58,110 nt of DNA from Bacteroidota bacterium (GTDB lineage: Bacteria; Bacteroidota; Bacteroidia; Chitinophagales; Chitinophagaceae): positions 1-58,110 of the forward strand of contig JAUZOD010000021.1 in assembly GCA_030706635.1 (NCBI GenBank), written 5' to 3'. The position numbers and the translations under genes are program-made. Under the pieces are notes generated by a model, which was not told the DNA's origin, did not search any database, and worked only from the letters and a program-made list of their open reading frames with translations. This document shows positions 27,371 to 50,238 of the stretch, piece by piece. How positions within the stretch are numbered: position 1 is the stretch's first letter; each line of letters starts with the position of its first letter.

Positions 27371-27372
27371 GA

Positions 27373-29012: not shown

Positions 29013-29106
29013 CAGAGAAATCAAAAAGGAATTGGAGGTTTTAGGAAATAGATAGATATTTTGCGCTGGTTAGCGTTTGTTAGTGAACAAATAATTTCAT
29101 TGTGTG

Positions 29107-29697: not shown

Positions 29698-29755
29698 AAA
29701 AAAAGTTTCTGCATTTTGAGTATCAAATTCATTTTCCATTCTCTTGGTATATCAG

Positions 29756-30835: not shown

Positions 30836-33800
30836 ATGAACAAAAGAGTTATTTCCCCGCGATGGTTTATCCAATCGCTGACATTATGCCTGGCAATCTG
30901 CGTTTCCTCTACGTTAACGGCGCAGGATGTGGCTTCCCTCACCTCGAGGAGCAGCAGGATTTCCGGAATCAGTACCGGAGATCAGGCCGGTTCCATGACG
31001 CTGGAGAAATTTATGGAGAAATTCCAGCACCTGTACAGTGTTTATTTCAGCTATGAAACGGATGCCCTGAAACAGGTGATGGTCGCGTACCCACAATCCG
31101 AAGAAAAGCCAAGGGGTGAGCCCAGCCTGTTGCTGAAAAAAGTGCTGGCGCCCGCCGGCCTCACGTTTACGGTAGTGAACAACGTGTACGTCATCAAACG
31201 GTCGCATGAAAAAAAAATGCTATCAGAAAATCAGGTGCAGGTCCCGTTCTCGTTTATTGTGAAGGGAAAAGTTACTGATGCCGGCAACGCGGCGGTGTCG
31301 GGCGTTACGGTTACCGAAAAGGGTACTGGCAATGCCACCACTACGGACGTCAACGGAAATTTTGAACTATCGGTGGCCGACGGTGAGGCCGTACTCGTAT
31401 TCAGTAATGTAGGTTATGGTACGCAGGAAGTGGCTATTCACCGGCGTCACGATATGCTTGTTGCCCTGCAGGGCGGCAAAGCAGAGGAACTGTCAGGCGT
31501 AGTGGTAACGGCCCTGGGCATAACCCGCGCAAAAAAATCGCTGGGCTATTCCATTGGTGAAATAAAAGGCGATGATCTGAACAAAGTGACTCAGAACAAT
31601 GTGCTGAATGGTATGGCCGGTAAAGTTTCCGGCGTTGTCATCAGTGCAACGAGCAGCGCACCCACTGGTTCCGTCAGCATGGTGATCCGGGGTATGCGCT
31701 CCCTGAACAACGATAACCAGCCATTATTTGTTATTGACGGGGTGCCGGTGAAAAACTCTCTCAGTAATATTGCTACCAATATGGGATCGGATAATGACGT
31801 GGATTATGGAAACGCCATTTCTGATCTGAATCCCAACGATGTAGAAAGTGTAACCATCCTGAAGGGACCGAGCGCTGCGGCGCTGTATGGTTCCCGGGCG
31901 GGTAACGGTGTGGTGATCATTACTACCAAAACCGGAAAGAAATCAAAGGGTCTGGGCATCACATTCACTACGAGTGATGAATTTGACAAACCTTATAAAT
32001 ATGTGCCCCTCAACATGGACTATACCGTGGGGACAGATCCTTATACGACGCCAAACGAATTCAACAGCTGGAACGGACAGATCGTAGATCTGGGCGGAAC
32101 AAATACCTATCGCTTCGGTACACCGCTGAACCAGGGCATCAAGGCCATTCAGTGGAACAGCACCCAGAATGCCGACGGAAGCTGGACGGAAAACGAACTC
32201 GTCAGCCACAACAACCTGAAAAATTTCATGCAGACGGGCGTCAACTCCGTCAACAGCATCTCCGTGGAAAATGCCACCGATAAAGACAACTACCGGTTGT
32301 CATATACCAATACGGTTAACCGGGGCATCATTCCGACAGAGGGCCTTAACCGCCACAACCTCTCTCTGAACATAGAGCACAAGATCAACCAGGCCTTACG
32401 GGTGAGCACTTCACTGAACTACACCCGGTCCAGCGCCCCCAATGTGATTGCCGGAAACAACGGCGGCGTGTTGCAGAATGTCGCTTATCTGTCGCCCAGT
32501 ATTGATATCCGTCAGGAAAAGAATTACTGGCTGACGCCCGGTATCCAGCAGCGGAAGGCAATCCCACCGGTTGGTGTGGATGCTGACCCGACCATTCCGG
32601 ATCCTTCCGGAGATGACTTCGATAACAACCCCTGGTTTACCGTCAATCAGGTAAAGAATACTTTTCTCCGCAACCGGCTTTTTGGAAATGTGAAACTGGA
32701 CTATCAGTTTAATCCGCATTTCAGCGCCTTCCTGCGTTATTCACAGGATCTGCTGAATGAAGACCGGGAGACCAAAATTTCCAAAAGCTATACCAGCGAA
32801 CTGAACGGATATTATGGTATTTCGAAGATCTATAATACGGAAAGCAATACCGACTTCCTGGCGACCTATACCAATGCCTTTAAGGATTTTTCGCTATCAG
32901 CTTCTGTCGGTGGCAATATCCAGTATTCCTATAGCTCTGTGGATCAGACTTTTTCCCAGTCAAAGGCAGGCATCATTGCTCCCGAGTTCTTCAGCCTGTC
33001 GAACATCGCTCCGGCTAACCTGCGTACGAATGGCGCCCCCCACTACGAAAAAGCGATTTACAGTTTATATGGAACCGCTTCGCTTGGCTATAAAAACTGG
33101 GCTTACCTGGATCTGACCGGAAGAAATGACTGGTCGAGCACATTGCCGACGGATAATTTTTCCTATTTCTACCCGTCCGCTTCGTTAAGCCTGCTGCTGA
33201 ACAATATCTTTCACATGAACGAGAACATCAGCCTGCTGAAATTGCGTGGCGGCTGGGCCAGTGTGGGCAAGGATACGGATCCCTACAACCTGTTCGGCAC
33301 CGTGGGTATCGGCAGCTATGGCGGTATTATTACAGAGGCTACTTCCTCTGTTCAGAAGAATGCGGAACTCAAACCGGAGCAAGCCATTTCAACGGAATTA
33401 GGTATAGACCTGAACCTGTTCAGGAACCGTCTGCGTTTTGAAGGAACCGTGTATCAATCAGATAACAGAAACCAGATCCTGGGGATCAGCACACCGCCTT
33501 CTTCGGGATCTACGTCGCGCCAGATCAACGCCGGTCTCGTTCGCAGCCAGGGCATTGAACTGCAACTCGGCGGTACCATCATTTCCAATCGCGACTGGAC
33601 CTGGAACCTGAGCGTCAACTACACGAAGAACAATTCTTACATTATATCTCTCGCCAACGGAGTGCCTTATTTCTCTTTCTGGCAGGATGGCAACAGCGGA
33701 TCATGGACCTATGCCAAGGGGCAGGTGATACCCGGCAATTTCCACGCCGACGGTTCTCCTGTGATCAGCGATGGAAAACTCGGCCAGTTATGGGATAATG

Positions 33801-34660
33801 TCATCGCCACGGTGACCGACAAAAGCTCGCCTTACTATGGTTATCCTCTGCTGGATAACGACGGACAATATCAGAAAGCGGGTGGTGGCGATTTCCAGCA
33901 CAAAGAAGCGGTGGGCAATTACAATCCGAAACTGCTGATGGGTATGCAGACGTCTATTTCTTATAAGGCGTTGACCCTGTCTATGAGTTTTGACATGCGC
34001 CTTGGCGGTACCTTCTTCTCTCAGACCTTCCGGTATATGCAGTCTGATGCGGCCATGGAACGCCAGACCAACATGGGTATCCCGATTCCGGCTGCCAACA
34101 AAGCCGATATCCCGGCTTTCCTGAAATCAAATCCCGATAAGTATATCAAATTTTCAGGTCTGCAGCAATTCCGCCTGGTCGGAGGTCCTACAACGGCAAC
34201 GGGTGGATTTCCTTATACCAGCAACGGTAATATCACCATCAACGATGGTGCATTTTTTCCCGGTGTTTACGACGATGGCAACGGAGGTTATGTCGAAAAT
34301 CTCGGCGACCTGAGCGTGACCAAACTCGACAGTTATGAAGATGCTGCCACCGCAGGCTGGAACTTCGCCCGCATGAGCATGTTTGATGCGTCTTACATCA
34401 AACTCAGAGAGCTTACTCTTAGTGCAGAACTTCCCAAAAGACTGGCCACTTCGTTAAAAGTACAGGGCATTTCCTTCGGCGTATATACCCGGAATATCGT
34501 GATCTGGACAAAAGCGAAAGTGGGTATTGATCCCGAAGCGGCCTTCCAGTTCCAGACCGGTGCGCAGGGAAATGGTTCCCAGTTTAGACAAGGGATCGAA
34601 CGGTATAACATCAGACCCTGGAGCTTTCCGATGGGTGTAAAACTGAGTGTTCGGTTCTAA
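30836..34660 (+). CDS. SusC/RagA outer membrane transporter with STN signalling domain
   Basis: A 1274-residue transporter, the longest protein in the window. Signal peptide to about residue 30 (SSTLTAQDV), an STN domain (about 55-125, with MTLEKFMEKFQHLYSVYFSY and FTVVNNVYVIKRS), a carboxypeptidase-regulatory-like domain (about 140-215, FIVKGKVTDAGNAAVSGVTV), then LSGVVVTALGITRAKKSLGY, VIRGMRSL, FVIDGVPVKN, YGSRAGNGVVIITTKTGK, and a barrel ending VKLSVRF. It imports the target glycan and signals to FecR (29756) through the STN domain. The TALGI-type hallmark groups it with the SusC at 1596, whereas the one at 8713 has GYGTQKK; both TALGI-type proteins also pair with SusD-like_2 lipoproteins. 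Confidence 0.97.
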   Translation: MNKRVISPRWFIQSLTLCLAICVSSTLTAQDVASLTSRSSRISGISTGDQAGSMTLEKFMEKFQHLYSVYFSYETDALKQVMVAYPQSEEKPRGEPSLLLKKVLAPAGLTFTVVNNVYVIKRSHEKKMLSENQVQVPFSFIVKGKVTDAGNAAVSGVTVTEKGTGNATTTDVNGNFELSVADGEAVLVFSNVGYGTQEVAIHRRHDMLVALQGGKAEELSGVVVTALGITRAKKSLGYSIGEIKGDDLNKVTQNNVLNGMAGKVSGVVISATSSAPTGSVSMVIRGMRSLNNDNQPLFVIDGVPVKNSLSNIATNMGSDNDVDYGNAISDLNPNDVESVTILKGPSAAALYGSRAGNGVVIITTKTGKKSKGLGITFTTSDEFDKPYKYVPLNMDYTVGTDPYTTPNEFNSWNGQIVDLGGTNTYRFGTPLNQGIKAIQWNSTQNADGSWTENELVSHNNLKNFMQTGVNSVNSISVENATDKDNYRLSYTNTVNRGIIPTEGLNRHNLSLNIEHKINQALRVSTSLNYTRSSAPNVIAGNNGGVLQNVAYLSPSIDIRQEKNYWLTPGIQQRKAIPPVGVDADPTIPDPSGDDFDNNPWFTVNQVKNTFLRNRLFGNVKLDYQFNPHFSAFLRYSQDLLNEDRETKISKSYTSELNGYYGISKIYNTESNTDFLATYTNAFKDFSLSASVGGNIQYSYSSVDQTFSQSKAGIIAPEFFSLSNIAPANLRTNGAPHYEKAIYSLYGTASLGYKNWAYLDLTGRNDWSSTLPTDNFSYFYPSASLSLLLNNIFHMNENISLLKLRGGWASVGKDTDPYNLFGTVGIGSYGGIITEATSSVQKNAELKPEQAISTELGIDLNLFRNRLRFEGTVYQSDNRNQILGISTPPSSGSTSRQINAGLVRSQGIELQLGGTIISNRDWTWNLSVNYTKNNSYIISLANGVPYFSFWQDGNSGSWTYAKGQVIPGNFHADGSPVISDGKLGQLWDNVIATVTDKSSPYYGYPLLDNDGQYQKAGGGDFQHKEAVGNYNPKLLMGMQTSISYKALTLSMSFDMRLGGTFFSQTFRYMQSDAAMERQTNMGIPIPAANKADIPAFLKSNPDKYIKFSGLQQFRLVGGPTTATGGFPYTSNGNITINDGAFFPGVYDDGNGGYVENLGDLSVTKLDSYEDAATAGWNFARMSMFDASYIKLRELTLSAELPKRLATSLKVQGISFGVYTRNIVIWTKAKVGIDPEAAFQFQTGAQGNGSQFRQGIERYNIRPWSFPMGVKLSVRF

Positions 34661-34694
34661 GTTTAAATAATCGAAAATAAAAAAATCAAAGAAG

Positions 34695-36464
34695 ATGAAA
34701 AGAATCTTAAAAATATCGGTCGGTCTCCTTGCAGCAACCCTGCTGATGTTTTCCTGTAAGAAGTTTTCCGTACTGAATACCGATCCCAACAACATTACCC
34801 CGGCCAATGCGGCCCCGGATTATCTGATGACCCAGGTGCTGACTTCCTCGGCTACCTTCTATGGAAACCTCGGTTCCGGAAATATGTCAGGCGCCATGCA
34901 GCAAACCTACCAGGATGCCTTTGGTAACTCATACAGTTTCTACAACTGGGACCCATCGGACTGGACAGGCAACTACAACACCTTGCGCGACAACAAGCTC
35001 ATGCTGGAAAAAGCACAGGAATTCGGCTGGAATTTCCATCAGGGTGTGGGACTGATCATGCGCGCCTTCCAATTTGGGACGATTGCTGATTTATGGGGCG
35101 ATGCTCCGGACTCCATGGCCCTTAAGGGTACTTTGGGCGGAGACGCAAATCAATACCCGGTGTTCGATGATCAGCAGACAATTTATGCAGGTGTTATTGC
35201 CGACCTGAAGGCCGCGATTCCTTTTTTAACCGGATCTATGACAGATCATCCGGAAATCACCGGCGTCACGCAGAGTGCGGACGTTTTTTACGGTGGCGAT
35301 CCTGAAAAATGGACCAAACTGGCCAACAGCCTGCTGTTGAGATATTATATGCGCCTCTCTGCCAAGCAAAACGTTCAGGCAGACGTGGAAGCCGTGGCGG
35401 CAAACGTTTTCCAGAGCAATGATGACGACTGGGCCATGCCGTTTCCCGGCATTGATCAGAATTCTTCCTATCAGAAATGTTCTGTATTCGGCGGCAATTC
35501 CAATTTTAACCGGAATAAAATGTGCGCCACCCTGGTCAAAAAAATGGACGCTCTGAAAGATCCGCGCATCGTGATCATGGCGGAACCGATCGTAACGCCG
35601 TCCGTACTGGATCAGAGCAAATTTGCGCCGGGGGATAATACAACCCTAACCTCCCTGGTGGGCAATGTTCGTTATATCAACCCTGCAGCTGCAGCCGCTT
35701 CCAGTCCGGTTTATAAAGAATTTGATATCAATACTTATGCTACCGACCGGCCCTATGGCGCTCCGATCGGAAACGTTAAAAGCTTTTTTGATACGTCGCC
35801 CAGATATGTTGGTATTCCCATCAGTTATTCACCCAATGATTTTTCGTACAACCTCAATGGAACGGGTACGCAGTCTACTTCCCTGAATAATTATGTTTCC
35901 TATATGCGCAGGGATATCTATGACAATCCCAGCGGAGACTTATTGAAACAGCGGATGGCTTCTTACAGCGAAATTTGTTTTGACCTGGCCGAAGCGGCGT
36001 TGAATGGCTGGAATGTGGGAGGATCTGCCGAAGATTGGTATAACAAGGGCATTCAGGCTTCTTTCGATCTCTGGCAGGTGTTCTCCACCTATCAGGGTGA
36101 TGTGAACGGTTACGCCGGTTGCGTGAAAGATTACAATACCTATATCGCCCAGCCCCTGGTTGCCTTTGACGGAACACTGGCCAGGATCATGGAACAGAAA
36201 TGGATCGCTTCCTGGCAGGCTTCCGTAGAATCATATATGGACTGGAGAAGAACCGGATTACCTGCATTAAGTATCGGGTACCTCTCCTGGCGCCAACAGA
36301 TCCCTGTGCGGTTTGCTTACTATAACACAGAACTCCAGAATAATCCGGCGAATTCTGCCGCAGCCATTGCTAAACTGGCGCCTACGGCCTACAATGGTCC
36401 CGACGGAAACAACAGTTCCTGGTCTAAATTCTGGTTATTGCAGGGTACCAACCTGCCCTGGTAG
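34695..36464 (+). CDS. SusD/RagB-like outer membrane lipoprotein (SusD-like_2 type)
   Basis: A 589-residue lipoprotein (lipobox LMFSC, Cys21) starting 34 bases after its SusC. It opens VLNTDPNNITPANAAPDYLM and has RAFQFGTIADLWGDAPDSMA, LANSLLLRYYMRLS and the closing YMDWRRTGLPALSIGY, as in the SusD-like_2 subgroup also seen at 4741. It binds the glycan on the cell surface and closes the SusC pore. A perfect 14-bp hairpin (36493-36527) stands between this gene and the enzyme genes that follow, which may let susCD and enzyme messages be kept at different levels. Confidence 0.95.
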   Translation: MKRILKISVGLLAATLLMFSCKKFSVLNTDPNNITPANAAPDYLMTQVLTSSATFYGNLGSGNMSGAMQQTYQDAFGNSYSFYNWDPSDWTGNYNTLRDNKLMLEKAQEFGWNFHQGVGLIMRAFQFGTIADLWGDAPDSMALKGTLGGDANQYPVFDDQQTIYAGVIADLKAAIPFLTGSMTDHPEITGVTQSADVFYGGDPEKWTKLANSLLLRYYMRLSAKQNVQADVEAVAANVFQSNDDDWAMPFPGIDQNSSYQKCSVFGGNSNFNRNKMCATLVKKMDALKDPRIVIMAEPIVTPSVLDQSKFAPGDNTTLTSLVGNVRYINPAAAAASSPVYKEFDINTYATDRPYGAPIGNVKSFFDTSPRYVGIPISYSPNDFSYNLNGTGTQSTSLNNYVSYMRRDIYDNPSGDLLKQRMASYSEICFDLAEAALNGWNVGGSAEDWYNKGIQASFDLWQVFSTYQGDVNGYAGCVKDYNTYIAQPLVAFDGTLARIMEQKWIASWQASVESYMDWRRTGLPALSIGYLSWRQQIPVRFAYYNTELQNNPANSAAAIAKLAPTAYNGPDGNNSSWSKFWLLQGTNLPW

Positions 36465-36545: not shown

Positions 36546-39002
36546 ATGAGATCCAAACTTATTCTTTGCACGGCTATTCTTCTCTCTTGTTTCGCGGCAT
36601 GGATCCCTTCGTTCTCTTTTGCGCAGAACAGCCTTTCAAAACAAACAACCATCGTCACCGACGCCGGCAATTTGTCCAACGGAGAAAAAGCGGCAGCACG
36701 GATCTTAACGGAAGAGGTTGAAAAAAGAACGGATTTTAAATGGATGCTGGAGCGTCGCATTCCGGAAAGCGGTGACGTGATTGTACTGCGGAATGCCGCT
36801 GCTTCATTGCCTGCTCCTGAAAATAAAAAAACTTCGCGCCGGAAGGGTATTTCAAATACCCTTAGCAAAGACGGGGACCTGCAATTCCCGGGGCTACCCC
36901 CGCTCTCTGCAAAACCGGAATCGTTCCGCATTGGCATCACCCAACAGCAGGGCAGGACCGTCATCCTCATCGAAGGATCTGATGGCAGGGGCGTGCTGTA
37001 CGGTGCAGGCAAATTATTGCGCATGATGCGGTTTGGCAGAACCGGCGGTTCTGCAGCGGAAAGTATTTCTCTGCTCGCCGGTCTTCCTCTGGCGGAAAGC
37101 CCGGATAAGCCCATTCGCGGCCATCAGCTGGGTTATCGCAACACGGCTAACTCTTACGACGGGTGGACGGTGGCGCAATTCGAGCAATATATCAGGGACC
37201 TCGTGGTATTCGGCACCAACAGCATTGAGTCCATCCCGATCTTCGACGAAAAGCCCAGCCCGCATTTTAAGATCCCTGCCGCCGACATGAACCGGCATAT
37301 CAGCGAAATCTGCCAGCAGTATGATATTGATTACTGGATGTGGGTGCCGGCGCAATTCGATCTGAAAGATGCCGTAAAACGGAAAAGATATTTAGATACG
37401 ATGGAAGATATCTGTAAATATTCTCCCCGTATCAACGGCGTTTTTTTCCCGGGTGGTGATCCGGGCGATAATCCGCCGGAACTGGTCTGGCCCCTTTTAA
37501 AAGATATCGCCGCAGTCCTGAAAAAATATCATCCGCAGGCCCGCACCTGGCTTTCCCTGCAGGGGTTTACCCATGCGCAGTCGCTGACGGTATATGACTA
37601 TATTCAAAAAGAGAAACCCGATTGGCTGGGTGGCCTGGTAACCGGGCCAAGCAGTCCTCCGGTGCAGGAAACACGGTCGGCGCTGCCTGCCAATTATCCA
37701 ATAAGATACTATCCCGATCTGACTCATAACGTGCGTTGTGATTTTCCGATATGGTGGTGGGACCCCGCGTTCAATCTTACCCTCGGCCGGGAAGCCAGTA
37801 ATCCCCAGCCTTATTATTATGCCACACTCTATCGTGCGCTGCAACAGTATATTGACGGCTTTATTTCTTATTCCGATGGCGCACACGACGATGTTAACAA
37901 GATCATTTGGACCCGCATGGCGTGGGATCCCAAATCCGATGAAAGAGAGATCATGAAAGAATATGCGGGTTATTTTTTCGGTGATTCGCTTGCGGAGCGG
38001 GGAGCAGATGGAATTCTTTCACTCGAAAAAAACTGGGAAGGACCCATCGTCGCCAACGGATCCATTGCTTCTACCTGCGCATCCTGGAATGAGATGGAAA
38101 ATAATCACCCGGAACTTTCCGGCAACTGGCGCTGGCAACTTTGCCTGCTCAGGGCTTATTATGATGCCTACACGCGCAGTCGTTTCATTTACGAAAGTCA
38201 GCTGGAGGCCGAGGCCAACAAAGTGTTGTTGCGTGCACCGGTAATGGGCGCAGACAAGGCCATCGTTGCGGCCGATAGTATTTTACTCCTGGCGGAAACG
38301 GCGCCTGTTCATCCGGAATGGCATCAGAAAATTATCCGCTTATGCGATGAGCTGTATCAATCCATCAGTCTGCAGACCAGCGTAAAAAAATATGGCGCTT
38401 CGGGTGAAGAGCGGGGCGCGATCCTGGATTTCCTGGACCTGCCGCTGAACAACCGCTGGTGGATTGAAGATGAATGCAAAAAAACGACAGTCCTTTCGGA
38501 ATCAGAGAAAATAAAAGCCTTACAACGCATCGCCAACTGGGAAGATCCGGGGCCCGGAGGCTTCTACGATGATGTGGGTAATGTTTCCAGATCACCCCAT
38601 GTATGGCGGGGAGAAGGATGGATCACGGATCCCCTCATGTTGCATGGCGATGATACGCCGGGCTACAACTGGTGGGATCAGGGATTCAGCCGGAAAAGAT
38701 TATCCTGGCTCACGGACATGCGATGGCCGCTGGCTATGGAATACAACGGACTCGATTCAACCGGTAAATATCACTACACGGTAAGGATCACGGGCAAAGG
38801 GGAATCTCATGTAAAGGCCAATGGTCAAAGACTTGTTCCCACACTATACGGAAAAGAAATCGGGGACATTAAGGAGTTCCCGGTACCGGCTGACCTCATA
38901 TCCCATGGAAAACTGGTCCTGACCTGGGACGACATTAACGAAGACAACCTGAACTGGAGACAACAGTCACGGGTAGCCGAAGTCTGGCTGATCCGGCAAT
39001 AA
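36546..39002 (+). CDS. Secreted glycosidase-like protein of unassigned family
   Basis: An 818-residue exported protein (signal peptide to about 26, PSFSFAQ). Residues about 30-165 resemble the N-terminal alpha/beta domain that precedes the barrel in GH20/GH67/GH84-type enzymes (ILTEEVEKRTDFKW; GRGVLYGAGKLLRMM). A TIM-barrel-like region follows (about 190-500), with RGHQLGYRNTANSYDGW, GVFFPGGDPGDNPPELVW, TWLSLQGFTHAQ and RCDFPIWWWDPAFN, rich in Asp, Glu and Trp as in active sites. A helical segment and a beta-rich C-terminal domain (about 680-818, ending QQSRVAEVWLIRQ) complete it. I cannot name the CAZy family. Given the adjacent GH20 gene, an exo-acting hexosaminidase or uronidase-like enzyme is plausible. 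The next gene starts 6 bases later. Confidence 0.65.
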   Translation: MRSKLILCTAILLSCFAAWIPSFSFAQNSLSKQTTIVTDAGNLSNGEKAAARILTEEVEKRTDFKWMLERRIPESGDVIVLRNAAASLPAPENKKTSRRKGISNTLSKDGDLQFPGLPPLSAKPESFRIGITQQQGRTVILIEGSDGRGVLYGAGKLLRMMRFGRTGGSAAESISLLAGLPLAESPDKPIRGHQLGYRNTANSYDGWTVAQFEQYIRDLVVFGTNSIESIPIFDEKPSPHFKIPAADMNRHISEICQQYDIDYWMWVPAQFDLKDAVKRKRYLDTMEDICKYSPRINGVFFPGGDPGDNPPELVWPLLKDIAAVLKKYHPQARTWLSLQGFTHAQSLTVYDYIQKEKPDWLGGLVTGPSSPPVQETRSALPANYPIRYYPDLTHNVRCDFPIWWWDPAFNLTLGREASNPQPYYYATLYRALQQYIDGFISYSDGAHDDVNKIIWTRMAWDPKSDEREIMKEYAGYFFGDSLAERGADGILSLEKNWEGPIVANGSIASTCASWNEMENNHPELSGNWRWQLCLLRAYYDAYTRSRFIYESQLEAEANKVLLRAPVMGADKAIVAADSILLLAETAPVHPEWHQKIIRLCDELYQSISLQTSVKKYGASGEERGAILDFLDLPLNNRWWIEDECKKTTVLSESEKIKALQRIANWEDPGPGGFYDDVGNVSRSPHVWRGEGWITDPLMLHGDDTPGYNWWDQGFSRKRLSWLTDMRWPLAMEYNGLDSTGKYHYTVRITGKGESHVKANGQRLVPTLYGKEIGDIKEFPVPADLISHGKLVLTWDDINEDNLNWRQQSRVAEVWLIRQ

Positions 39003-39008: not shown

Positions 39009-41072
39009 ATGAAAAGAAATGCATTCATAATACGGAATATATTGGTACTGCTCCTGTTGACAGGCTGGCAGTTCGCCAGAGCACAGATCAACAACACCTA
39101 TAACCTGATGCCCGTTCCGCGGGAATTAAAAACAAACGGGGAAAGGCTGGACATCACGCAAAATTTCAGGGTCTCCGTTACCGGTCATCCCGATCCGAGG
39201 ATATATGCGGAAGCGAGCCGGTTTATCCGCCGGCTTGGCGAAAAGACGGGACTCTTTCTCGACAAACAGGGTTATGTCGGGCAGCAGGACAACAATCCCT
39301 CAGCCCCGCTCCTGATCCGGGTTCAGCGTCCCGGAAAACTGGATTTGAACGAGGATGAAACTTATTCGCTGGACGTTCATGATCAGCAGGTGATTATTGA
39401 TGCGCGCACCGACCTGGGCGCTATTCACGGGCTGGAGACTCTGTTGCAGCTCATAAGCACAGATGAACAGGGATATTATTTTCCGGGCGTTTCCATAAAG
39501 GATCAGCCGCGGTTTGCCTGGCGGGGGCTATTGCTCGACGTGGTGCTGCATTTCATGCCGATGGACGTGATCAAGCGGACACTCGATGGAATGGCCGCTG
39601 TAAAACTAAATGTACTCCATCTTCATTTGTCCAACGATCAGGGTTTTCGTGTTGAATCCAAAGTTTTCCCCCAGCTTCAGCGCAAGGCCTCTGACGGTTT
39701 ATATTATTCGCAGGAAGAGATCAGGGAAATTATCCGGTACGCCGGGCAGCGGGGTATAAGGATAGTTCCTGAATTTGTGGTTCCCGCACACACTACGGCT
39801 ATCTTAACGGCCTTCCCGGAACTCGCCAGCGTAAAACGAAAATACAGCCTGCAGCGCTATTTCGGCGTGTTTGATCCCGTGCTTGATCCGACCAATGAAA
39901 AAGTATATGTATTCCTGGATAAATTGTTTACGGAAATGGCACACCTGTTTCCGGACGCTTATTTCCATATTGGCGGCGATGAGAATACCGGGAAAGATTG
40001 GGAGAACAACCCGCACATCAGAGCGTATATGAAGGCTCATGGAATGAAGAACTACATGGATCTTCAAACCGCATTCAACAAACGCATCCTGCCGATACTT
40101 GAGAAAAACGGAAAAACGATGATGGGCTGGGATGAAATCCTGCAGCCGGGTGTGCCCAAAAATATTGTGATCCAGTCCTGGCGTGGAAATGAAGCTTATT
40201 ATACTTCCATTAAAAGGGGATACAAGGCCATTCTTTCCTATGGGTATTATATTGACCTGATTCAGCCTGCTTCCTACCATTACCTCAACGATCCGGCTCC
40301 AGACAGCGTGAACTTCACCGCAGCGGAAATCAAAAATATCCTCGGGGGTGAAGCCACCATGTGGAGTGAACTGGTGACGCCGGAAACAGTGGATTCCCGG
40401 ATATGGCCGCGGTCGGCTGCCATAGCAGAAAGACTATGGTCATCACGGGAAATAAAAGATGTCGACGATATGTACCGGAGGCTGGACAGGGTCAGCCTGA
40501 ATCTCGAAGCCCTGGGTCTCCGGCACGAGGCCTATAAACAGCCCATGCTGCGGAGGCTGGCGAATGGTTATGATACCCGCGCTCTGGAAGTTTTGGTGAA
40601 CGTGATTGAGCCACTGAAGATCTACGAGCGGAATCAGGGGGACACAATGTATTCCGCATTCTCTCCCTATACCAAAATAGCAGATGTGGCGACACCGGAT
40701 CAGGCATTGCCCAGGATATTCAGCCGGGAAACCGATTTGTTTTTAAAAAACCACGAGCCCGCGCTGGAGAAAAAGATTACGGATCAATTGCTGATCTGGA
40801 AAGAGAATCATCAGCATTTTCTGGAAACTCTGCGATCTTCCCCCGAATTAGGGGAGGCTGTTTCATTATCCGAAAACCTTTCACGGCTGGCGGCGGCCGG
40901 GTTGTCTGCTATGACCTTTATTCATGCGGGCCAGCAGCCGGATGCGGACTGGCTCGAAGGACAATTAAAGATCACAGAGAAGGCCAGAGAACAGGGGGGG
41001 CGCTGTGAACTGCAGGTGGTGACTCCGGTTGAGCAACTGATAAAAGCCGCTGCCGGCAGGGATTGGCATTAA
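39009..41072 (+). CDS. GH20 family beta-N-acetylhexosaminidase
   Basis: A 687-residue secreted enzyme (signal peptide ending near QFARAQ). An N-terminal GH20b domain (about 35-155) precedes the GH20 barrel (about 165-500). Visible active-site text: WRGLLLDVVLHFMP, LHLSNDQGFRVESK, VPEFVVPAHTTAI, and the catalytic HIGGDEN in which Asp324-Glu325 form the substrate-assisted catalytic pair; MGWDEIL and VIQSWRGNEA line the pocket. It releases terminal beta-linked GlcNAc or GalNAc. A C-terminal helical extension (about 510-687) is longer than in many relatives. It follows the unassigned enzyme by 6 bases, so the two probably act in sequence on the imported glycan. Confidence 0.95.
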   Translation: MKRNAFIIRNILVLLLLTGWQFARAQINNTYNLMPVPRELKTNGERLDITQNFRVSVTGHPDPRIYAEASRFIRRLGEKTGLFLDKQGYVGQQDNNPSAPLLIRVQRPGKLDLNEDETYSLDVHDQQVIIDARTDLGAIHGLETLLQLISTDEQGYYFPGVSIKDQPRFAWRGLLLDVVLHFMPMDVIKRTLDGMAAVKLNVLHLHLSNDQGFRVESKVFPQLQRKASDGLYYSQEEIREIIRYAGQRGIRIVPEFVVPAHTTAILTAFPELASVKRKYSLQRYFGVFDPVLDPTNEKVYVFLDKLFTEMAHLFPDAYFHIGGDENTGKDWENNPHIRAYMKAHGMKNYMDLQTAFNKRILPILEKNGKTMMGWDEILQPGVPKNIVIQSWRGNEAYYTSIKRGYKAILSYGYYIDLIQPASYHYLNDPAPDSVNFTAAEIKNILGGEATMWSELVTPETVDSRIWPRSAAIAERLWSSREIKDVDDMYRRLDRVSLNLEALGLRHEAYKQPMLRRLANGYDTRALEVLVNVIEPLKIYERNQGDTMYSAFSPYTKIADVATPDQALPRIFSRETDLFLKNHEPALEKKITDQLLIWKENHQHFLETLRSSPELGEAVSLSENLSRLAAAGLSAMTFIHAGQQPDADWLEGQLKITEKAREQGGRCELQVVTPVEQLIKAAAGRDWH

Positions 41073-41098: not shown

Positions 41099-42229
41099 AT
41101 GCCGGAGACAATGGAGGGAGTAGCCAAAAGCAAAAGCGCCAGACTGATGGCCCTGGATATTTTCAGGGGGCTCACCATAACCACCATGATTATCGTGAAT
41201 GATCCGGGCCTGGAAGAACATACGTATGCGCCGCTGCAGCATGCCCGCTGGAACGGAATCACGCCAACCGATTATGTATTTCCTTCTTTCATTTTCATGG
41301 TGGGGATATCCGTCGCCTTATCTTATTCAAAACAACTGGCAAAAGGATTGCCGCGCAGGGATATGTTACGGAAAATATTCCGCCGGGCGATCATCCTTTT
41401 TGTGCTCGGTGTATTCTTAAGCACCCTTCCTTATTTTGATTTTGCAAACTACCGGATCCCCGGCGTATTGCAACGCATATCCCTGGTCTACGTGGCCTGC
41501 GCTCTGCTGTTCCTTTACACAGGATGGAAATTCCAGGCGAGGCTCTCTGCGTTCATTTTGCTGGCCTACTGCCTGGTGATGACCTTAGTACCGGTGCCCG
41601 GATACGGTTATGCCATTCTGGAGCCCGGAAAAAACCTGGCCGCCTGGCTGGACGCCATCGTGATTCCCGGCAGGATGTGGCAGGGTACATGGGATCCCGA
41701 AGGCATACTCAGCAGTTTTCCCGCGGTGGTTAGTGGTATTCTGGGAATGCTCACAGGACAATTAGTCCTGGGTAAACAAACCACGGAACGAAAAATCATC
41801 TGGCTGTTTTTCGGAGGCTTTATTTCTTTCGCAGTCGCCAATATGTGGAACTGGTGGTTTCCCATTAATAAAAATCTCTGGACCAGTTCATTTGTGCTTT
41901 ATACAGCAGGATTAGATGCCATGATCCTGGCGTCATTGTATTACCTGGTAGATGTGCTCGGCTATCAGCGGGGATGGAAATTCGCCATGATCTATGGTTC
42001 CAATGCCATCGCGGCATACCTCGTTGCAGAAGTGGTTGACGATCTGCTGGTGCTGAGATGGAGCGGACGGGAACATGGGAAAAGCATGCAGGAATGGGCA
42101 ATCGAAAGGTTGCTTACGACCGGGATATCACCGGAGCTGCTGTCCTTTCTCTGGGCTCTCGCTTTTTGCGCGCTTTGTTTTATTCCCATTTATTTTCTTT
42201 ACCGGAAAAAGATTTTCTTAAAGATTTAA
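41099..42229 (+). CDS. NagX/HGSNAT-like membrane acyltransferase (DUF5009 type)
   Basis: A 376-residue membrane protein with about ten helices, paralogous to the protein at 24996-26093. It shares ALDIFRGLTITTMIIVNDPG, LQHARWNGITPTDYVFPSFI (with the conserved His of the active site), WQGTWDPEGILSS and the C-terminal FIPIYFLYRKKIFLKI. HGSNAT family members acetylate the amino group of glucosamine-type sugars using acetyl-CoA from the other side of the membrane. In this locus it stands after a GH20 enzyme (26-base gap), so it may acetylate a released amino sugar before transport or breakdown. That role is inferred. It is the only integral inner membrane protein among the enzymes of this locus. 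Confidence 0.88.
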   Translation: MPETMEGVAKSKSARLMALDIFRGLTITTMIIVNDPGLEEHTYAPLQHARWNGITPTDYVFPSFIFMVGISVALSYSKQLAKGLPRRDMLRKIFRRAIILFVLGVFLSTLPYFDFANYRIPGVLQRISLVYVACALLFLYTGWKFQARLSAFILLAYCLVMTLVPVPGYGYAILEPGKNLAAWLDAIVIPGRMWQGTWDPEGILSSFPAVVSGILGMLTGQLVLGKQTTERKIIWLFFGGFISFAVANMWNWWFPINKNLWTSSFVLYTAGLDAMILASLYYLVDVLGYQRGWKFAMIYGSNAIAAYLVAEVVDDLLVLRWSGREHGKSMQEWAIERLLTTGISPELLSFLWALAFCALCFIPIYFLYRKKIFLKI

Positions 42230-42286: not shown

Positions 42287-44524
42287 ATGAGATATACATT
42301 TGCCTTATTATTTTCTCTGTTGCTGCTGCGGCCAGTTTACAGCCAGGTGCAGGTAAAAAATGAAACGACCGTCAGCGATAAAGATTTCATGCAGGAGTAT
42401 GATGAAAGTTATCCCGTTGGGAAAACGCCTGAGGAAAACAATGTCCGCAAAATTGCAGTTGATCAGAATTCAACAATATGGATTGCCACAGCCCGGGGTG
42501 TGCTGATGAAAAAAGACGGTGAGACCACATGGACTCCGGTTTCTTTTTCTGATGAAGATAAAGGTCCCGCTTATGCCGTTGCCGTAGATGATCAATCCGC
42601 TGTTTGGATGGGCACCTGGAATGCCGTTTTTTCCTATCAGCAGGGCGCTTTGAAAAAAGTTCCCGGCACATCGGGGCCCATCTCCCTGATCTGTCCTTCC
42701 CGTGAAGGCATTTATGCGATCGGCCCGGATGGCGTCTGGCTGCTGAGCGGAGGCCGGTTCGTAAAAAAGAATTATTCCATCGCGAGATCCGTGCGCAGTG
42801 CGGTATCTGATGGTGAGCAGGGCATCTGGGTAGCCAGTGATGTGGGACTCTATCATTGCAATGCAAAGGGCACTCGCTATTTTCAAAAAACCGACGTGCT
42901 GTTAAGCGCTTATCTCAAAGGTTTATCTTTTGATTCCCAGGGTCGTCTCTGGGTAGCCGGCCTCGGAGGTGTAACGATATTAAAGGATGGAAAAAAACAA
43001 AAGCTGATCCGGCCGCAGGAAGGATGCCCTTCCATCTATACCTATTGCGTCCGGCGTTCACCCGGGGGCGTTATGTGGGTCGGAACCCAGGTGGGTGTGG
43101 TGCGTTTTTCACCTGACGGAGCGCATTCCCTGCGTTTCAGCCGGCGCTGGCTGCTGGATGATCAGGTGAATGATATCGCTTTTGACCGGGAGGGTAATGC
43201 CTGGATCGCAACGGCCGGAGGAGTCAGCGCCATTAAAAAAAGAAAAATGAACCTGCTTTCCAAACAGGATTATTTCTATGATGTCCTGATGAGAAGACAT
43301 ATCCGGAAACCCTGGATAGCGGGACAATGTCATTTGGAGATTCCCGGAGACACCAGTTCCTGGCGCCCGGAAGATGATGATAACGATGGGGAATATGGCG
43401 GCAACTACCTCGCCATGGAATGTTTTCGTTATGCGGTGACCAAAAGCGAAGATGCGCGGCAGAAAGCGGGAAAGGCATTTGCTTTTTTAAAACAGCTCCG
43501 CGAAGTAACCGGGGGCGATGGTTATTTTGCCCGGACCATTGTTCCTGCAGATTGGAAATATCCTGTTCATGATGATAACAAACATTACAGCGACAGGGAA
43601 AAAGCAGAAGAGCTGGTAAAAGAACCCCGCAACAAACCGGTGGAGACGCGCTGGAGAAAATCAGCCGACGGGCAATGGCTCTGGAAGGGCGATGCGAGCA
43701 GTGATGAATGGTGCGGGCACATGATGGGCTATTATTTTTATTATGAACTCGTAGCCGATGAAGCAGAGAAAATTGTGGTTCGCAAACACGTGGCTACCCT
43801 GGTGGATCACCTCATGGCTCATGATTTCAATATGATGGATGTGGACGGTACCCATACGCGCTGGTCAGTATGGTCGCCCGCCTCCCTGAACCACGATCCG
43901 GAATGGGAGCCTGACCGGAGCGAGAACTCCATGGAGTTGCTCGCCTTTCTGAAACTGGCTTATTATATGACGGGCGATGAAAAATATCAGGAGCAATACC
44001 TGCGGTTCATTAAAAAAGAACATTACCTGGACAATATGGCGAAGCTCACGCAACAAAACCCCGCCTGGTTTATTTACTATGATGTGATGATGCAATCCTA
44101 TCTCTATCCCATACTCATCAAATGCGAAAAAGATCCCGTGCTGAAAGCCTGGTATGAACAACATATGGACAACTGGATGAAGCTGCGAAGGAATGACCGG
44201 AATCCCCAGATCAATTTCTTTTATTGTTATTCGCGGAATAAAAAACAGGAGCTAAATGCTTCTGTGGATTTTCTCCGGGATACACCGCTCGACCTGATAA
44301 ACTGGAATATCGATCACACGAAAAGGGAAGATGTGCGGATGGTGCATGTGCCCGTTTTGGATGATCTCCAGGTGAATGAACTTCCGCCGGCCAGTATCCG
44401 CACCACGGTGCGCTGGGATAAAAACCCCTGGGCGGCTGTTAATGGTGTTCCCGATATTGAACGGGAACCGGTATTCTGGCTTCTTCCTTACTGGATGGGC
44501 CGTTACTTAAAGATGATTCAATAA
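42287..44524 (+). CDS. Secreted two-domain protein: Reg_prop-like propeller plus helical domain (paralogue 1)
   Basis: A 745-residue exported protein (signal to about 19, VYSQ). Residues about 45-320 hold at least six repeats of the two-component-regulator propeller type (TIWIATARGV, AVWMGTWNAV, GIWVASDVGL, RLWVAGLGGV, VMWVGTQVGV, NAWIATAGGV). The C-terminal part (about 335-745) is all-helical in appearance and has RRHIRKPWIAG, DDDNDGEYGGNYLAMECFRY, GDASSDEWCGHMMGYYFYYE, HTRWSVWSP, PLDLINWNIDHTKR and the closing LLPYWMGRYL, reminiscent of (alpha/alpha)6-barrel enzymes. There is no kinase or DNA-binding domain, so it is not a hybrid two-component sensor. Function is unknown; a carbohydrate-active enzyme is my best guess. 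Two paralogues follow in tandem. Confidence 0.7.
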   Translation: MRYTFALLFSLLLLRPVYSQVQVKNETTVSDKDFMQEYDESYPVGKTPEENNVRKIAVDQNSTIWIATARGVLMKKDGETTWTPVSFSDEDKGPAYAVAVDDQSAVWMGTWNAVFSYQQGALKKVPGTSGPISLICPSREGIYAIGPDGVWLLSGGRFVKKNYSIARSVRSAVSDGEQGIWVASDVGLYHCNAKGTRYFQKTDVLLSAYLKGLSFDSQGRLWVAGLGGVTILKDGKKQKLIRPQEGCPSIYTYCVRRSPGGVMWVGTQVGVVRFSPDGAHSLRFSRRWLLDDQVNDIAFDREGNAWIATAGGVSAIKKRKMNLLSKQDYFYDVLMRRHIRKPWIAGQCHLEIPGDTSSWRPEDDDNDGEYGGNYLAMECFRYAVTKSEDARQKAGKAFAFLKQLREVTGGDGYFARTIVPADWKYPVHDDNKHYSDREKAEELVKEPRNKPVETRWRKSADGQWLWKGDASSDEWCGHMMGYYFYYELVADEAEKIVVRKHVATLVDHLMAHDFNMMDVDGTHTRWSVWSPASLNHDPEWEPDRSENSMELLAFLKLAYYMTGDEKYQEQYLRFIKKEHYLDNMAKLTQQNPAWFIYYDVMMQSYLYPILIKCEKDPVLKAWYEQHMDNWMKLRRNDRNPQINFFYCYSRNKKQELNASVDFLRDTPLDLINWNIDHTKREDVRMVHVPVLDDLQVNELPPASIRTTVRWDKNPWAAVNGVPDIEREPVFWLLPYWMGRYLKMIQ

Positions 44525-44548
44525 TCACGATATTTTAAGCCACTTAAT

Positions 44549-46807
44549 ATGAGATCATTCCTTCCCCTTGCATTGTTTTTCTTTTTATGCTGCTCCGTAA
44601 ACGGACAACATCCTGCTCCGGGTCAGCCCGTACATAAAGACCTGCCCTACCAGCAGAAATTCAGTATTAAATATGTATTGAATTACGGAGCTTCACCGGG
44701 TTCAGATAAAGGGGATAGTGTCCGGCTTCAAAAAGTTTATTGCGACCGGAACGGCGCAGTGCAGGTCTGTTCTTCTGCCGGACTTTTGAAACCTTCAGAC
44801 GGTGCATTGCTATACCCGGGCGAGCTGGTGCCCGACCTGCTCTACAGGCCCATGCGGAACATGAAGATAAAGGACATGATCCTGTATAACGATCAGTTTG
44901 TGTATGCCGATGAAAAGGCTGTGCTGAGTAATGCCTGGGCAGGAAAACTGTATGCGAAACATCGTATGCCTGCAGTGCAGTCATTTTGCGGAGGGCCTGA
45001 TTTTTCTTTCCTGCTCTCTGACGGCAACAACCTGCAGTACCTGAAAGATTCCAACGTTGTTTGGGAGGCGCATTCCGACGACCGGGTTATCGATATACTT
45101 TACGATAGAGCAGGAAATTCGTTTTGGATCCTCGGCGGGCATTCCATTTCCAATTTATCATTGAAAGATATGAAGCTGAGTGTCAAATATAAAGGAGACG
45201 GGTTAACCTGCTTCGCGCTCTCAGACAATCAAAAGGAAATCATAACGGGCACGCACAATGGTTATTTTAATATCCGTGCGGATGATGGCGTGATGACAGG
45301 GGAAATTCAAACAAAGCTTCCCTGTAATGATCTCAGCGTCATACGGGTCATCGATGGAAAAACCTGGTTTGGTTCTGAGCAGGGCGCTTTTATGTTGCGC
45401 GCAGACGGCAAGTTCGATTATTATGCGTCTGCCCGCTGGATCCCATCCGACAGGATCGTGGATATCGCCAAGGGCGGAAAGGATATGGTCCTGCTGCTTA
45501 CGGATAAAGGATTGGGAGAGATTCATTTTCAATCCATGACCTTGTATGATAAAGCGGTATTTTTTGAAAAGCAGGTGCGTACAAGGCATATCCGCAATGG
45601 ATTTAATGCCACGATCTCCGGCATGAAAGGCGGTAATCCCGATACGGGCGTGCTGGAGGACTCTGATAACGACGGGCTTTGGACAGCCATGTATCTGGGT
45701 GGCGAAGTATTCCGTTATGCGGTTACGCATTCCCCGGATGCCCTGCAGAACTGCCGCGAGTCGCTGGATGCGATGGAGCGTATGTACACGATGACGCACA
45801 TCAAGGGATTTCCGGCAAGATCATTTGAAAGAAGAGGATATGAATCATCTGACCGGGAAGTATGGAGACCGGCTGCAGATTCCGGATGGGATTGGAAATC
45901 AACCACCAGCAGTGACGAAGCCATCGGGCACATGTTTGTATTTGGCGCCATTGCAGAACTTGTTGACGATCCCGGAGTAAAGAACAAAGCCATCCGCCTG
46001 ATGGATGCGCTGATGCAGCATATTGTGGATCACCAGATGTATATGGTGGACTGGGATGGCAAACCCACGAAATGGGGAAGATGGAATCCGGAATACGTGA
46101 ATGCCCGTCCCCTGATGGTGGGTGACCGGAAAATCACTTCTTCAAATATTGTGTCCATGTTGCAGACAGCCTGGCATTTCACGCATAAAGAAATCTATAA
46201 AGACAAAGCGTTCGAACTGATGCAGAAATACGGATATCTGAAAAACCTGATGCGCCCCATGAAAGACATTGGCAGGGCGCCTGAGGATGCTGACGAACTA
46301 AGCAGGGATTTATCTGATGGATGGAACCACTCCGATGATGAAATGTATTTCCTGGGTTACTGGGGACTTTACCGTTATGCATTCAATGATACGCTGAAAG
46401 CAAAATTCAAAGAGGCGATCCTTGATCACTGGCAGGCCGAAAGACCGGAAAAAGAAGCCGCCTGGGATTTATTTACGGCGATAACCGGTGTGCAATCTTT
46501 TGACCTGCAAAATGCGGTGGACTATCTGCAGCGTTATCCGCTTGATCTGGTCAACTGGCGCATAAAAAACAGCCAGCGGAAAGACCTCGATTTTATTGCT
46601 CCTAATTTCCGGAGACAGACCATTACGGAAGTATTGCCACCGGATGAACTGCCCATTGAAAGGCATAATGCAAACCTTTTCGGTCTGGATGGAGGAAATA
46701 ACGGCAGGTCTGAAAACAGTGCGGGGGATATCTGGCTATTGCCCTATTGGCTGGGAAGATATTTAGGCGTGATCAGCGCTCCCGCGGAACACAAGATATC
46801 GAAATGA
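44549..46807 (+). CDS. Secreted two-domain propeller/helical protein (paralogue 2)
   Basis: A 752-residue exported protein (signal LPLALFFFLCCSVNG). The N-terminal half (about 35-335) aligns by eye with paralogue 3: DRNGAVQVCSSAGLLKPSDG, LLYPGELVPDLLYRPM, VLSNAWAGKLY, GTHNGYFNI, TWFGSEQGAFMLRADGKFDY, LLLTDKGLGEIHF; it is probably a propeller with less regular repeats than paralogue 1. The helical C-terminal half (about 345-752) has RHIRNGFNATISG, DNDGLWTAMYLGGEVFRYAV, TTSSDEAIGHMFVFG, TKWGRWNPEYVN, NHSDDEMYFLGYWGLYRYA, PLDLVNWRIKNSQRKDL and LLPYWLGRYLGVISAP. It starts 24 bases after paralogue 1 and its stop overlaps the start of paralogue 3 (ATGA). Confidence 0.7.
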   Translation: MRSFLPLALFFFLCCSVNGQHPAPGQPVHKDLPYQQKFSIKYVLNYGASPGSDKGDSVRLQKVYCDRNGAVQVCSSAGLLKPSDGALLYPGELVPDLLYRPMRNMKIKDMILYNDQFVYADEKAVLSNAWAGKLYAKHRMPAVQSFCGGPDFSFLLSDGNNLQYLKDSNVVWEAHSDDRVIDILYDRAGNSFWILGGHSISNLSLKDMKLSVKYKGDGLTCFALSDNQKEIITGTHNGYFNIRADDGVMTGEIQTKLPCNDLSVIRVIDGKTWFGSEQGAFMLRADGKFDYYASARWIPSDRIVDIAKGGKDMVLLLTDKGLGEIHFQSMTLYDKAVFFEKQVRTRHIRNGFNATISGMKGGNPDTGVLEDSDNDGLWTAMYLGGEVFRYAVTHSPDALQNCRESLDAMERMYTMTHIKGFPARSFERRGYESSDREVWRPAADSGWDWKSTTSSDEAIGHMFVFGAIAELVDDPGVKNKAIRLMDALMQHIVDHQMYMVDWDGKPTKWGRWNPEYVNARPLMVGDRKITSSNIVSMLQTAWHFTHKEIYKDKAFELMQKYGYLKNLMRPMKDIGRAPEDADELSRDLSDGWNHSDDEMYFLGYWGLYRYAFNDTLKAKFKEAILDHWQAERPEKEAAWDLFTAITGVQSFDLQNAVDYLQRYPLDLVNWRIKNSQRKDLDFIAPNFRRQTITEVLPPDELPIERHNANLFGLDGGNNGRSENSAGDIWLLPYWLGRYLGVISAPAEHKISK

Positions 46808-49140
46808 GGAAAGCCATTCTGTCCATATTTATCTTTAGCATAGTTTTCCCGGGGACAATGAAGATTGCCGTCGCCGGTGCTTACTCAACTCCCGCACGGG
46901 GAATAGATACGGTGTACCATGACAGGCCCTACGAGCAGGATTACAGCATCCGCTATTACCCTGAAGACAAAACCGCCCTGCTGCGCAGGATCGTTTCCGA
47001 TCGCAATGGAAATATCTGCGTGTTGTCTGATAGAGGGCTGCTGAAACCGCATGCCGGAAAATTATTATATCCCGGGGAGCTGGTCCGCGACCTGAGTTAT
47101 CGCCCACTAACGGACAGGAAAATATCCGGCCTCGCTCTGTATGAGGATCAATTCGTATATCTCGACAACAAGGCCGTGTTCAGCAATGCCTGGGCAGGAG
47201 CATGTTATTCCGCGCATGACTTACCGGGGGCCGTGCTGCTGGCAGCAGGCAAAGATTTCAACTTTCTGGTTTCCGACGGACAGCAGCTCGAGCTCATTCA
47301 CGACGGGCAAAATCTTTGGACCGGCAGGTCCTCCGCTGCCATACTCAGCATTCAATACGCGCCGGATACCGGTCTCTTCTGGTGGATCACCACGCATGCG
47401 CTGGGTTATTTTTCTCCGCAAAAAAAAGCCATGGTCACCGTATTCAGCGGAGATGACTTCACCTGCTTCAAAATACTGGATAATACCGCATGGATAGGCA
47501 CCCATAACGGATACCTTGAACTGGATCTCGCCACGCATAAACAAAGAGGCCAATATCACCGGCATCTTCCGGCGACAGATCTCACGGTGATCGAACAGAT
47601 CAATAACAGGCTTTGGTTTGGTTCCGTAAAGGGGGCTTTCATGCTAAGGGCCGACGGAAAATTCAATTACTATGCATCGCAGCGATGGCTGCCCGGTGAT
47701 CGCGTCACCGATATCGCAAAAGGCGAAGATGGCGCGGTGCTCGTGCTTACCGATAAGGGCCTGGGGAAAATATGCTTTGAAAAATTCAGCCTGGAGCAGA
47801 AAGCAGCCTACTATGAAGAACAGGTGAGGCAAAGGCATATCCGCTACGGATTCTATTCCGACTACTCCAATATCAGGAACGGCGATATTTCAACGGCCGA
47901 AACGGGGCCGCATGATAGTGATAACCTGTGGACCTCCATGTACCTGGCCGGCGAACTTTTCCGCTGGCTGGTGACCCACGATGAATCCGCAAAGCAGAAT
48001 TGTCTCGAATCCCTTGACGCCATGGAGCGGCTCACGACGCTGAGCGGGATTCCGGGACTGTTTGGCCGCTGCGTCGAAAGGCACGGGATCGTCGAATTTA
48101 AAAATGAATACAGAAAAAATATCGAGGACTACTGGTATCCCGGTTACGCCAATACGCCGAGCAGCTGGCGGCAGTCGCCCGACAAGGAATGGGACTGGAG
48201 AGGTTCCGCCAGCAGCGACCAGGCGGTGGGTCAATACTTCGCCCTGACCCTGATCGCACAATACATGGACGATAAGGAAGTGAAAGAAAGAGCCATCCGG
48301 CTGATCGACGGGCTCACCGGTTATATCCTGGACAACGGCCTGAAACTGATAGACTATAACGGGAGGCCAACATTATGGGGTATCTGGGCTCCGGAATATG
48401 TAAATCGTTTCCCGGACATGGTCGGGGACAAGAAATTATATTCTTCCAATATCATCAGCTTTCTTCAGACCGCCTGGCATTTTACCGGCAAGGAGAAATA
48501 CAAAGACAAAGCGCTGGAGCTACTATATAAAGATCATTACCTACAGAATCTTACCCGCCCTGTCAGCCAGATAGGGCCCGCGCCGGAAAGCGCGGATAAA
48601 TGGAGTAAAATGCTCTCGGGCAACTGGAACAACTCCGATGATGAAATGTATTTCCTTGCCTATTGGGGCCTGTATCCCTACGCCCTGAACGATACGCTGA
48701 GAGCGGCATACGGTGAAGCCATCCGCGACCACTGGAATATAAAAAGACCGGCAAAGGACGCACTATGGAATCTCTGTTATGCGATGACGGGCGCCCGGGA
48801 TTTCGATCTGGATGAAACAATCTGGGAACTAAAGGAAATGCCGCTGGATCTGATCAACTGGCCCCTGCACAACAGCGACAGAAAAGATCTGCAGTTTCCG
48901 AAGAAGATCGTCCGGCAACAATTCGTCACGGAAGTGCTGCCTCCCGATGAGCGACCCGAAAACAAACATAACCGGAATCTCTTTACCTTAAACAGCAGCT
49001 CGAATGCGTCCGCAGAGCTGGGCGGCGGTGATGTTTATTTACTGCCCTATTGGATGGGCAGGTATTTTGGGGTGATCAGTGCTCCCGAAGAGAGTGATCA
49101 GGGCCTTAGCGAAAAGCAATTGACAAAGAAAGCTTGGTGA
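46804..49140 (+). CDS. Secreted two-domain propeller/helical protein (paralogue 3)
   Basis: A 778-residue exported protein. ATG 46804 (MRKAILSIFIFSIVFPG) gives a signal peptide and an ATGA overlap with the stop of paralogue 2, so I prefer it to an upstream in-frame codon at 46747 that lies inside paralogue 2. It matches paralogue 2 along its length: SDRNGNICVLSDRGLLKPHA, LLYPGELVRDLSYRPL, GTHNGYLEL, RLWFGSVKGAFMLRADGKFN, RHIRYGFYSDYSN, DSDNLWTSMYLAGELFRW, SASSDQAVGQYFALT, TLWGIWAPEYVN, NNSDDEMYFLAYWGLYPYAL, PLDLINWPLHNSDRKDL and LLPYWMGRYFGVISAPEE. In the SSDE motif the Glu is a Gln here. The function is unknown. The overlap suggests the two are made in balanced amounts. Confidence 0.7.
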   Translation: MRKAILSIFIFSIVFPGTMKIAVAGAYSTPARGIDTVYHDRPYEQDYSIRYYPEDKTALLRRIVSDRNGNICVLSDRGLLKPHAGKLLYPGELVRDLSYRPLTDRKISGLALYEDQFVYLDNKAVFSNAWAGACYSAHDLPGAVLLAAGKDFNFLVSDGQQLELIHDGQNLWTGRSSAAILSIQYAPDTGLFWWITTHALGYFSPQKKAMVTVFSGDDFTCFKILDNTAWIGTHNGYLELDLATHKQRGQYHRHLPATDLTVIEQINNRLWFGSVKGAFMLRADGKFNYYASQRWLPGDRVTDIAKGEDGAVLVLTDKGLGKICFEKFSLEQKAAYYEEQVRQRHIRYGFYSDYSNIRNGDISTAETGPHDSDNLWTSMYLAGELFRWLVTHDESAKQNCLESLDAMERLTTLSGIPGLFGRCVERHGIVEFKNEYRKNIEDYWYPGYANTPSSWRQSPDKEWDWRGSASSDQAVGQYFALTLIAQYMDDKEVKERAIRLIDGLTGYILDNGLKLIDYNGRPTLWGIWAPEYVNRFPDMVGDKKLYSSNIISFLQTAWHFTGKEKYKDKALELLYKDHYLQNLTRPVSQIGPAPESADKWSKMLSGNWNNSDDEMYFLAYWGLYPYALNDTLRAAYGEAIRDHWNIKRPAKDALWNLCYAMTGARDFDLDETIWELKEMPLDLINWPLHNSDRKDLQFPKKIVRQQFVTEVLPPDERPENKHNRNLFTLNSSSNASAELGGGDVYLLPYWMGRYFGVISAPEESDQGLSEKQLTKKAW

Positions 49141-50152: not shown

Positions 50153-50204
50153 TGCCGGCGGCGCGAACCTCATTGTACAGGATAGTTAATTTACCTGATA
50201 CAGC

Positions 50205-50212: not shown

Positions 50213-50238
50213 CGATCTTTTAATAATAATCTCTTGCC

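Follow-up and report, generated by a model that had tools for sequence, protein, structure and literature searches.

Three adjacent genes of a Bacteroidota bacterium encode apparently exported proteins, designated A, B and C below, in which an N-terminal propeller is joined to a C-terminal helical toroid. By its models, the toroid is an (α/α)6 barrel of the six-hairpin superfamily, and it is read as a separate, unnamed family of that superfamily in Bacteroidota when judged against Pfam, NCBIfam and the PDB. A, B and C are likely to be enzymes, and the explanation that we favour, with moderate confidence, is that they are exported glycan-hydrolysing enzymes of this unnamed family. The genes lie in a stretch of 58,110 nucleotides, which was analysed as a whole and is referred to as the window.

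Gene A (42287..44524, + strand) encodes 745 amino acids, with a Reg_prop propeller followed by the toroid (43259..44521, +), which was modelled alone. Gene B (44549..46807, +) encodes 752 amino acids, with a propeller and then a toroid (45548..46804, +) in the structure model of the whole protein. Gene C (46804..49140, +), encoding 778 amino acids or, from an alternative longer TTG start in the ORF listing, 797, has the same layout by homology to B; its toroid half was placed at 47797..49137 (+) by alignment. The three open reading frames follow each other on the + strand with a gap of 24 bases and then an overlap of 4 bases, as described in a sequence-only reading of this DNA. In BLASTP, B and C are 48% identical across their whole length (E 0.0), and A is 25% identical to both C (E 9e-57) and B (E 3e-52). 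At these E values, chance is excluded as an explanation of their end-to-end homology. The motifs RHIR, SSD[EQ], W-x-P, PLDL[IV]NW and LLPYW[ML]GRY, earlier listed as common to the three proteins, are indeed found in all of them, but the D-N-D/L-W motif from the same list is only partly common, as A has DDDNDGEY at this position, without LW. The proteins are apparently exported, since their N-termini resemble signal peptides by eye. When B was searched against its own genome, only A, B and C matched.

An AlphaFold2 model of full-length B, built with 64 sequences, has a pLDDT of 92.4 and a pTM of 0.90 and shows, after the propeller, 15 helical elements, which can be grouped as 12 main helices. 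Since propellers, those of BT4663 and BT4673 included, filled the Foldseek matches of full-length B, the C-terminal half of A was folded by itself (82 sequences; pLDDT 91.0, pTM 0.93), and this model has the same number of helical elements (15) as that of B. When compared with the PDB in Foldseek, the A toroid gave nine matches with an E value of 0.001 or below, all of them epimerase, isomerase or GH9 entries. The best 50 matches comprise epimerases, an isomerase, GH9, GH76, GH146, GH88, GH125 and other sugar enzymes of the (α/α)6 fold. All these likenesses are distant (8-15% identity, TM 0.3-0.5, rmsd 8-14 Å), and no family is ahead of the others. Together, the confident models of A and B and the matches to carbohydrate enzymes bear out the (α/α)-barrel that had been proposed from the sequence, and the barrel of the six-hairpin ((α/α)6 toroid) superfamily is recognised in them at TM values of only 0.3-0.5.

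The earlier reading knew of no named family for the C-terminal domain, and the libraries name none either. No Pfam family claims the toroids of A, B and C or those in sets of 23 and 82 toroid domains, the toroid is unclaimed in NCBIfam for A, B, C and 64 full-length members, and sequence searches of the PDB named no family. No paper on the propeller-toroid family was recognised among the freely available papers searched. In hhalign profile comparisons, for which the reference sets were small (13, 11 and 10 sequences), the toroid matched GH127 at 85.7%, AGE at 19.5% and GH88 at 0.1%, where the yardsticks from the same sets are 85.7% for GH127-AGE, 55.3% for GH127-GH88 and 38.0% for GH88-AGE. 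The match to GH127 is local, covering 151 columns and placing SSDExxGH over the start of a GH127 helix, and it amounts to only 18.7% under forced global alignment. As GH127 is as near to the toroid as it is to AGE, the toroid is read as a member of the superfamily that constitutes a family of its own.

Membership of one of the three compared families was considered and rejected in each case. GH127 is noted for a catalytic Cys/zinc site. Among A, B, C and the sets of 23 and 82 domains, no member passes the GH127 model PF07944, and the conserved cysteines are missing: the only column with more than 30% Cys is 402 (97 of 167 domains). PF07944 matched none of the three proteins at E 0.1, and weak matches were found for 4 of 23 toroid domains (best E 0.0086) and, at E up to 1, for 7 of 82 (best 0.001); SidE_mART, an unrelated family, gave an equal number of weak matches (7 of 82, best 0.017). 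For AGE and GH88, PF07221 and PF07470 are absent from the Pfam matches, and the hhalign values given above complete the rejection.

Conservation was analysed over 167 distinct toroid domains, with residues numbered as in B. D375, D456, D596, D666, D679, R424, R677, W439, W509, W512 and Y733 are invariant in all 167, and D501 is kept in 166. The only histidines above 85% conservation are H347 (163/167) and H461 (143/167). When 64 members were compared for the concentration of invariant polar and aromatic residues, 62 positions conserved at 95% or more were located in the toroid and 14 in the propeller. A barrel with a pocket lined by the conserved acids had been named beforehand as the support to look for, and the most conserved acids share one predicted face. 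In the predicted secondary structure, the loops leading from odd- to even-numbered helices are the long ones. On the face of these loops, which was defined after the conservation pattern had been seen, all 9 acids with a conservation of at least 95% are found, as compared with 33 of the 56 other acid positions (p 0.014); the corresponding counts are 8 of 8 at 97% (p 0.023) and 6 of 6 at 99% (p 0.064). The same test over all residues was not significant (p 0.38, 0.25 and 0.05 at 95, 97 and 99%), nor was the face test with narrower windows (p 0.47 and 0.53). In the proposed mechanism, the toroid would cleave a glycosidic bond in a central pocket by acid/base catalysis, with D375, D456, D501, D596, D666 and D679 as the candidates among which the catalytic aspartates may be found, and with E457/H461 as a putative variable pair.

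This pair belongs to the SSDE...H motif, which is located at 43697..43720 (+; residues 471-478) in A and at 45908..45931 (+; residues 454-461) in B, and which has the form SSDQ...Q at 48211..48234 (+; residues 470-477) in C. Among the 167 domains, the residues at 457 and 461 are EH in 143, QQ in 21 and EY in three, and neither EQ nor QH occurs. The QQ domains, i.e., 18 of the C type and three others, form a single branch with a support of 95 in a quick tree of 92 rows. Because they are on one branch, the QQ form probably goes back to a single old double change rather than to repeated covariation. C might be a changed form that pairs with B.

The same fold could serve another chemistry, in which case the toroid would be a polysaccharide lyase or a sugar epimerase or isomerase. 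We consider this unlikely. Cellobiose 2-epimerases and a mannose isomerase head the Foldseek list, but fold rank among matches with a TM of 0.3-0.5 says little about chemistry, and the profile match to AGE is low. Moreover, epimerases of the (α/α)6 fold use several histidines, whereas H347 and H461 are the only well-conserved ones here. A lyase would fit with a weak Alginate_lyase match in 2 of 82 domains (best E 0.034) and with the genes for UxuA and an SDR enzyme, suggestive of a uronate route, that accompany the family in several loci of Dyadobacter.

A, B and C lie in a polysaccharide utilisation locus, adjoined by SusC/SusD, GH20, sigma factor and FecR genes. On the + strand, genes for a sigma factor and a FecR regulator (29104..30817; Pfam) are followed by SusC-like and SusD-like genes (30836..36464; SusC recognised by homology clusters, SusD by Pfam), a gene for an 818-amino-acid protein (36546..39002), a GH20 hexosaminidase-type gene (39009..41072; PF00728, E 1.2e-91) and an HGSNAT/NagX-like membrane gene (41099..42229; PF07786, E 3.7e-11). 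Of the two genes that the first description had placed before A, the GH20 gene stands; the other, said to be glycosidase-like, is the 818-amino-acid gene, with only a weak match to the GH20 N-terminal domain (GH20b, E 1.2e-4; 23.2 bits, below the cut-off of 26.1). The HGSNAT/NagX-like gene between GH20 and A was missing from that description. Genomes of the same genus repeatedly carry the SusC/SusD pair together with GH20, A and B. Divergently oriented genes (24996..28236, -) encode an HGSNAT-like protein, assigned by its similarity to that of 41099-42229, a NagP/GluP-like transporter (371 bits with the NagP model, below the cut-off of 625) and a MurQ-like etherase (PRK05441, 306 bits, cut-off 168). 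The latter is the second copy in the genome, the two scoring 255.8 (window copy) and 287.5 bits, both below the TIGR00274 cut-off of 302.

Several other genes of the window and their kin were recorded. The 818-amino-acid protein belongs to an unnamed family with 11 members in the clustered loci, and its gene adjoins B-like genes in L030, L032, L043, L114 and L122. Directly after C, at 49169-57526 (+), genes are found for a GFO/IDH/MocA oxidoreductase, a CxxCH haem-binding protein, a DUF4432 protein, a xylose-isomerase-like barrel and a levoglucosan-dehydrogenase-like protein (371-type model match below cut-off), a set that perhaps represents a 3-keto-sugar route. A DUF2961 protein (E 8.4e-52) is encoded at 13989-15689 (+), immediately after another SusC/SusD pair, and a protein with a 3-keto-disaccharide hydrolase domain (PF06439, E 2.7e-44) at 18333-19106 (+).

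The HGSNAT/NagX-like, NagP/GluP-like and MurQ-like genes near A-C make amino sugars likely, and the three proteins may act beside GH20 on an amino-sugar-containing glycan. Such a substrate is only a lead, and a cell-wall sugar is possible. Passages of one paper propose that NagX-type proteins acetylate glucosamine and describe them as distant kin of the MurNAc transporter TfMurT (PMC9007349), and passages of another place murT, murK and murQ of T. forsythia within one operon (PMC5790795). Both fit the proposal that the cassette acts on peptidoglycan or its fragments and supplies MurNAc and GlcNAc to the products of the HGSNAT-, NagP- and MurQ-like genes adjoining the locus, the MurQ-like gene of the window being an extra copy beside a higher-scoring one outside the window. 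We judge this proposal to be quite unlikely. A MurQ-like paralogue is present in 5 of the best 80 loci, in two of them operon-like, but the remaining 75 lack one in the stretch examined, and no known peptidoglycan amidase or peptidase was found among the Pfam-scanned neighbours. Genome-level co-occurrence with MurQ was discarded as evidence, since MurQ-type matches over the cut-off are near universal (212 of 298 genomes of the order) and their presence says little. A broader idea, that a new carbohydrate-active family with a propeller-toroid unit forms a three-paralogue machine on amino-sugar glycans such as those of the cell wall, in which C is altered or non-catalytic through its E-to-Q and H-to-Q changes, also seems doubtful to us.

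The neighbours vary much between lineages. Operon-like neighbours in the best 80 loci are most often BNR_2 (27), DUF3748 (17) and PfkB-HAD (10), followed by SusC (9), SusD (9), metallophosphatase (9), HGSNAT (7) and GDPD (6), and GH20 was unmatched in most of these loci. Thus, one common substrate is uncertain. Uronate-type genes replace the amino-sugar-type genes in other lineages. In Dyadobacter, the family is accompanied by PfkB-HAD, DUF3748, UxuA and SDR genes (L069, L077, L082, L093, L102, L103, L104, L107, L116 and L119), in most of these loci also by BNR_2 genes, a catabolic setting unlike that of the window.

A scan of a genome collection confirmed at least 566 stretches encoding the family from at least 588 pattern matches. 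The loci named here are the best 80 of these, ranked by likeness to B, and by their titles all are Bacteroidota records except for one Thalassobius bin (L108), which may be mis-binned. Relatives occur in several Bacteroidota families. In whole-genome searches, own genome included, the family was found in 14 of 58 relatives, all of the window's genus, in 15 of 298 genomes of the order and 9 of 395 of the class, one being a weak fragment in either case, and in 7 of 395 genomes of the phylum. No relative was matched among plasmid records, and none of 30 pattern matches in viral contigs was a relative. The propeller-toroid layout is nearly always kept: of 171 domains with the frame uncut upstream, a count that includes near-duplicate loci, 166 have an open frame of 290 residues or more ahead of them. 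B occurs alone in 43 of the best 80 loci, and the other cassettes are AB (20), BC (7), ABC (4), BB (4), ABBC (1) and BBx (1), counts that are biased by this ranking towards B. At L092:10303-11422, a further B-type copy is spread over two frames, with 174 and 206 domain residues. A 439-amino-acid protein at L150:6898-8217 (+), too short for a propeller, matches the toroid profile weakly over part of the domain (E 8e-7), has no Pfam match, and is perhaps a propeller-less cousin. Fusions also occur. B and C form a single open frame of 1,493-1,536 codons in 7 of the 14 family-bearing genomes of the genus (G007, G011, G013, G020, G026, G030 and G032), and in two of them, G007 and G013, GH20 is likewise continuous with A, in a frame of 1,408-1,409 codons.

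The propeller claimed earlier for all three proteins is supported in A by Pfam and in B by the model. Reg_prop (PF07494) is above its cut-off in gene A only (E 1.8e-14; 52.4 vs 20.4 bits), and no propeller match above the Pfam cut-off was obtained for B or C. Up to residue 330, the AlphaFold2 model of B has 29 strands of at least three residues, which fits seven blades. The propeller is a β-propeller of a type found in glycan sensors and may hold the glycan or a partner. It is improbable that the whole protein is non-catalytic, serving in the periplasm or outer membrane as a scaffold or glycan binder, or else as a partner to GH20: propellers are often binding modules and that of A is nearest to the sensor BT4663, the QQ clade is without the conserved Glu-His pair, and GH20 can be fused to A, but the conserved positions concentrate in the toroid rather than in the propeller, and so many kept acids are rare in binding proteins.

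Relatives are encoded in many stretches, yet the toroid is nameless in the libraries searched. A fold, candidate residues and gene fusions narrow down which substrates and mutants are worth testing for these unnamed proteins. A propeller type known from glycan-sensing kinases is here joined to an apparent enzyme.

Among known systems, the β-L-arabinofuranosidases of GH127 (PF07944) and GH146 have the (α/α)6 toroid in common with A-C. GH127 is the best of the three profiles tried, and GH146 entries are among the Foldseek matches of the A toroid; in contrast to GH127, the A-C family carries an added propeller. The AGE or cellobiose 2-epimerase family (PF07221) leads the Foldseek list (E 4e-4 to 1e-3), but differs by its low profile match and by the few conserved histidines in the toroid described here. 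On the propeller side, the hybrid two-component sensor BT4663, with its periplasmic Reg_prop propeller, matches the A propeller in sequence (E 9.9e-19), and the propellers of BT4663 and BT4673 are similar in fold to that of B. Whereas these are sensors, A-C have one propeller of ~300 residues joined to a toroid, and no kinase family was matched in A, B or C in Pfam and NCBIfam when a histidine kinase domain was looked for. The PorZ model NF052228 also detects a propeller likeness, with 39.7 bits for gene A, far below its cut-off of 260, no match for B or C, and matches at E 0.01 or better for 14 of 64 full-length members; the sole other NCBIfam match is F510_1955 (7 of 64). In contrast to PorZ, the remainder of the protein in A-C is a toroid.
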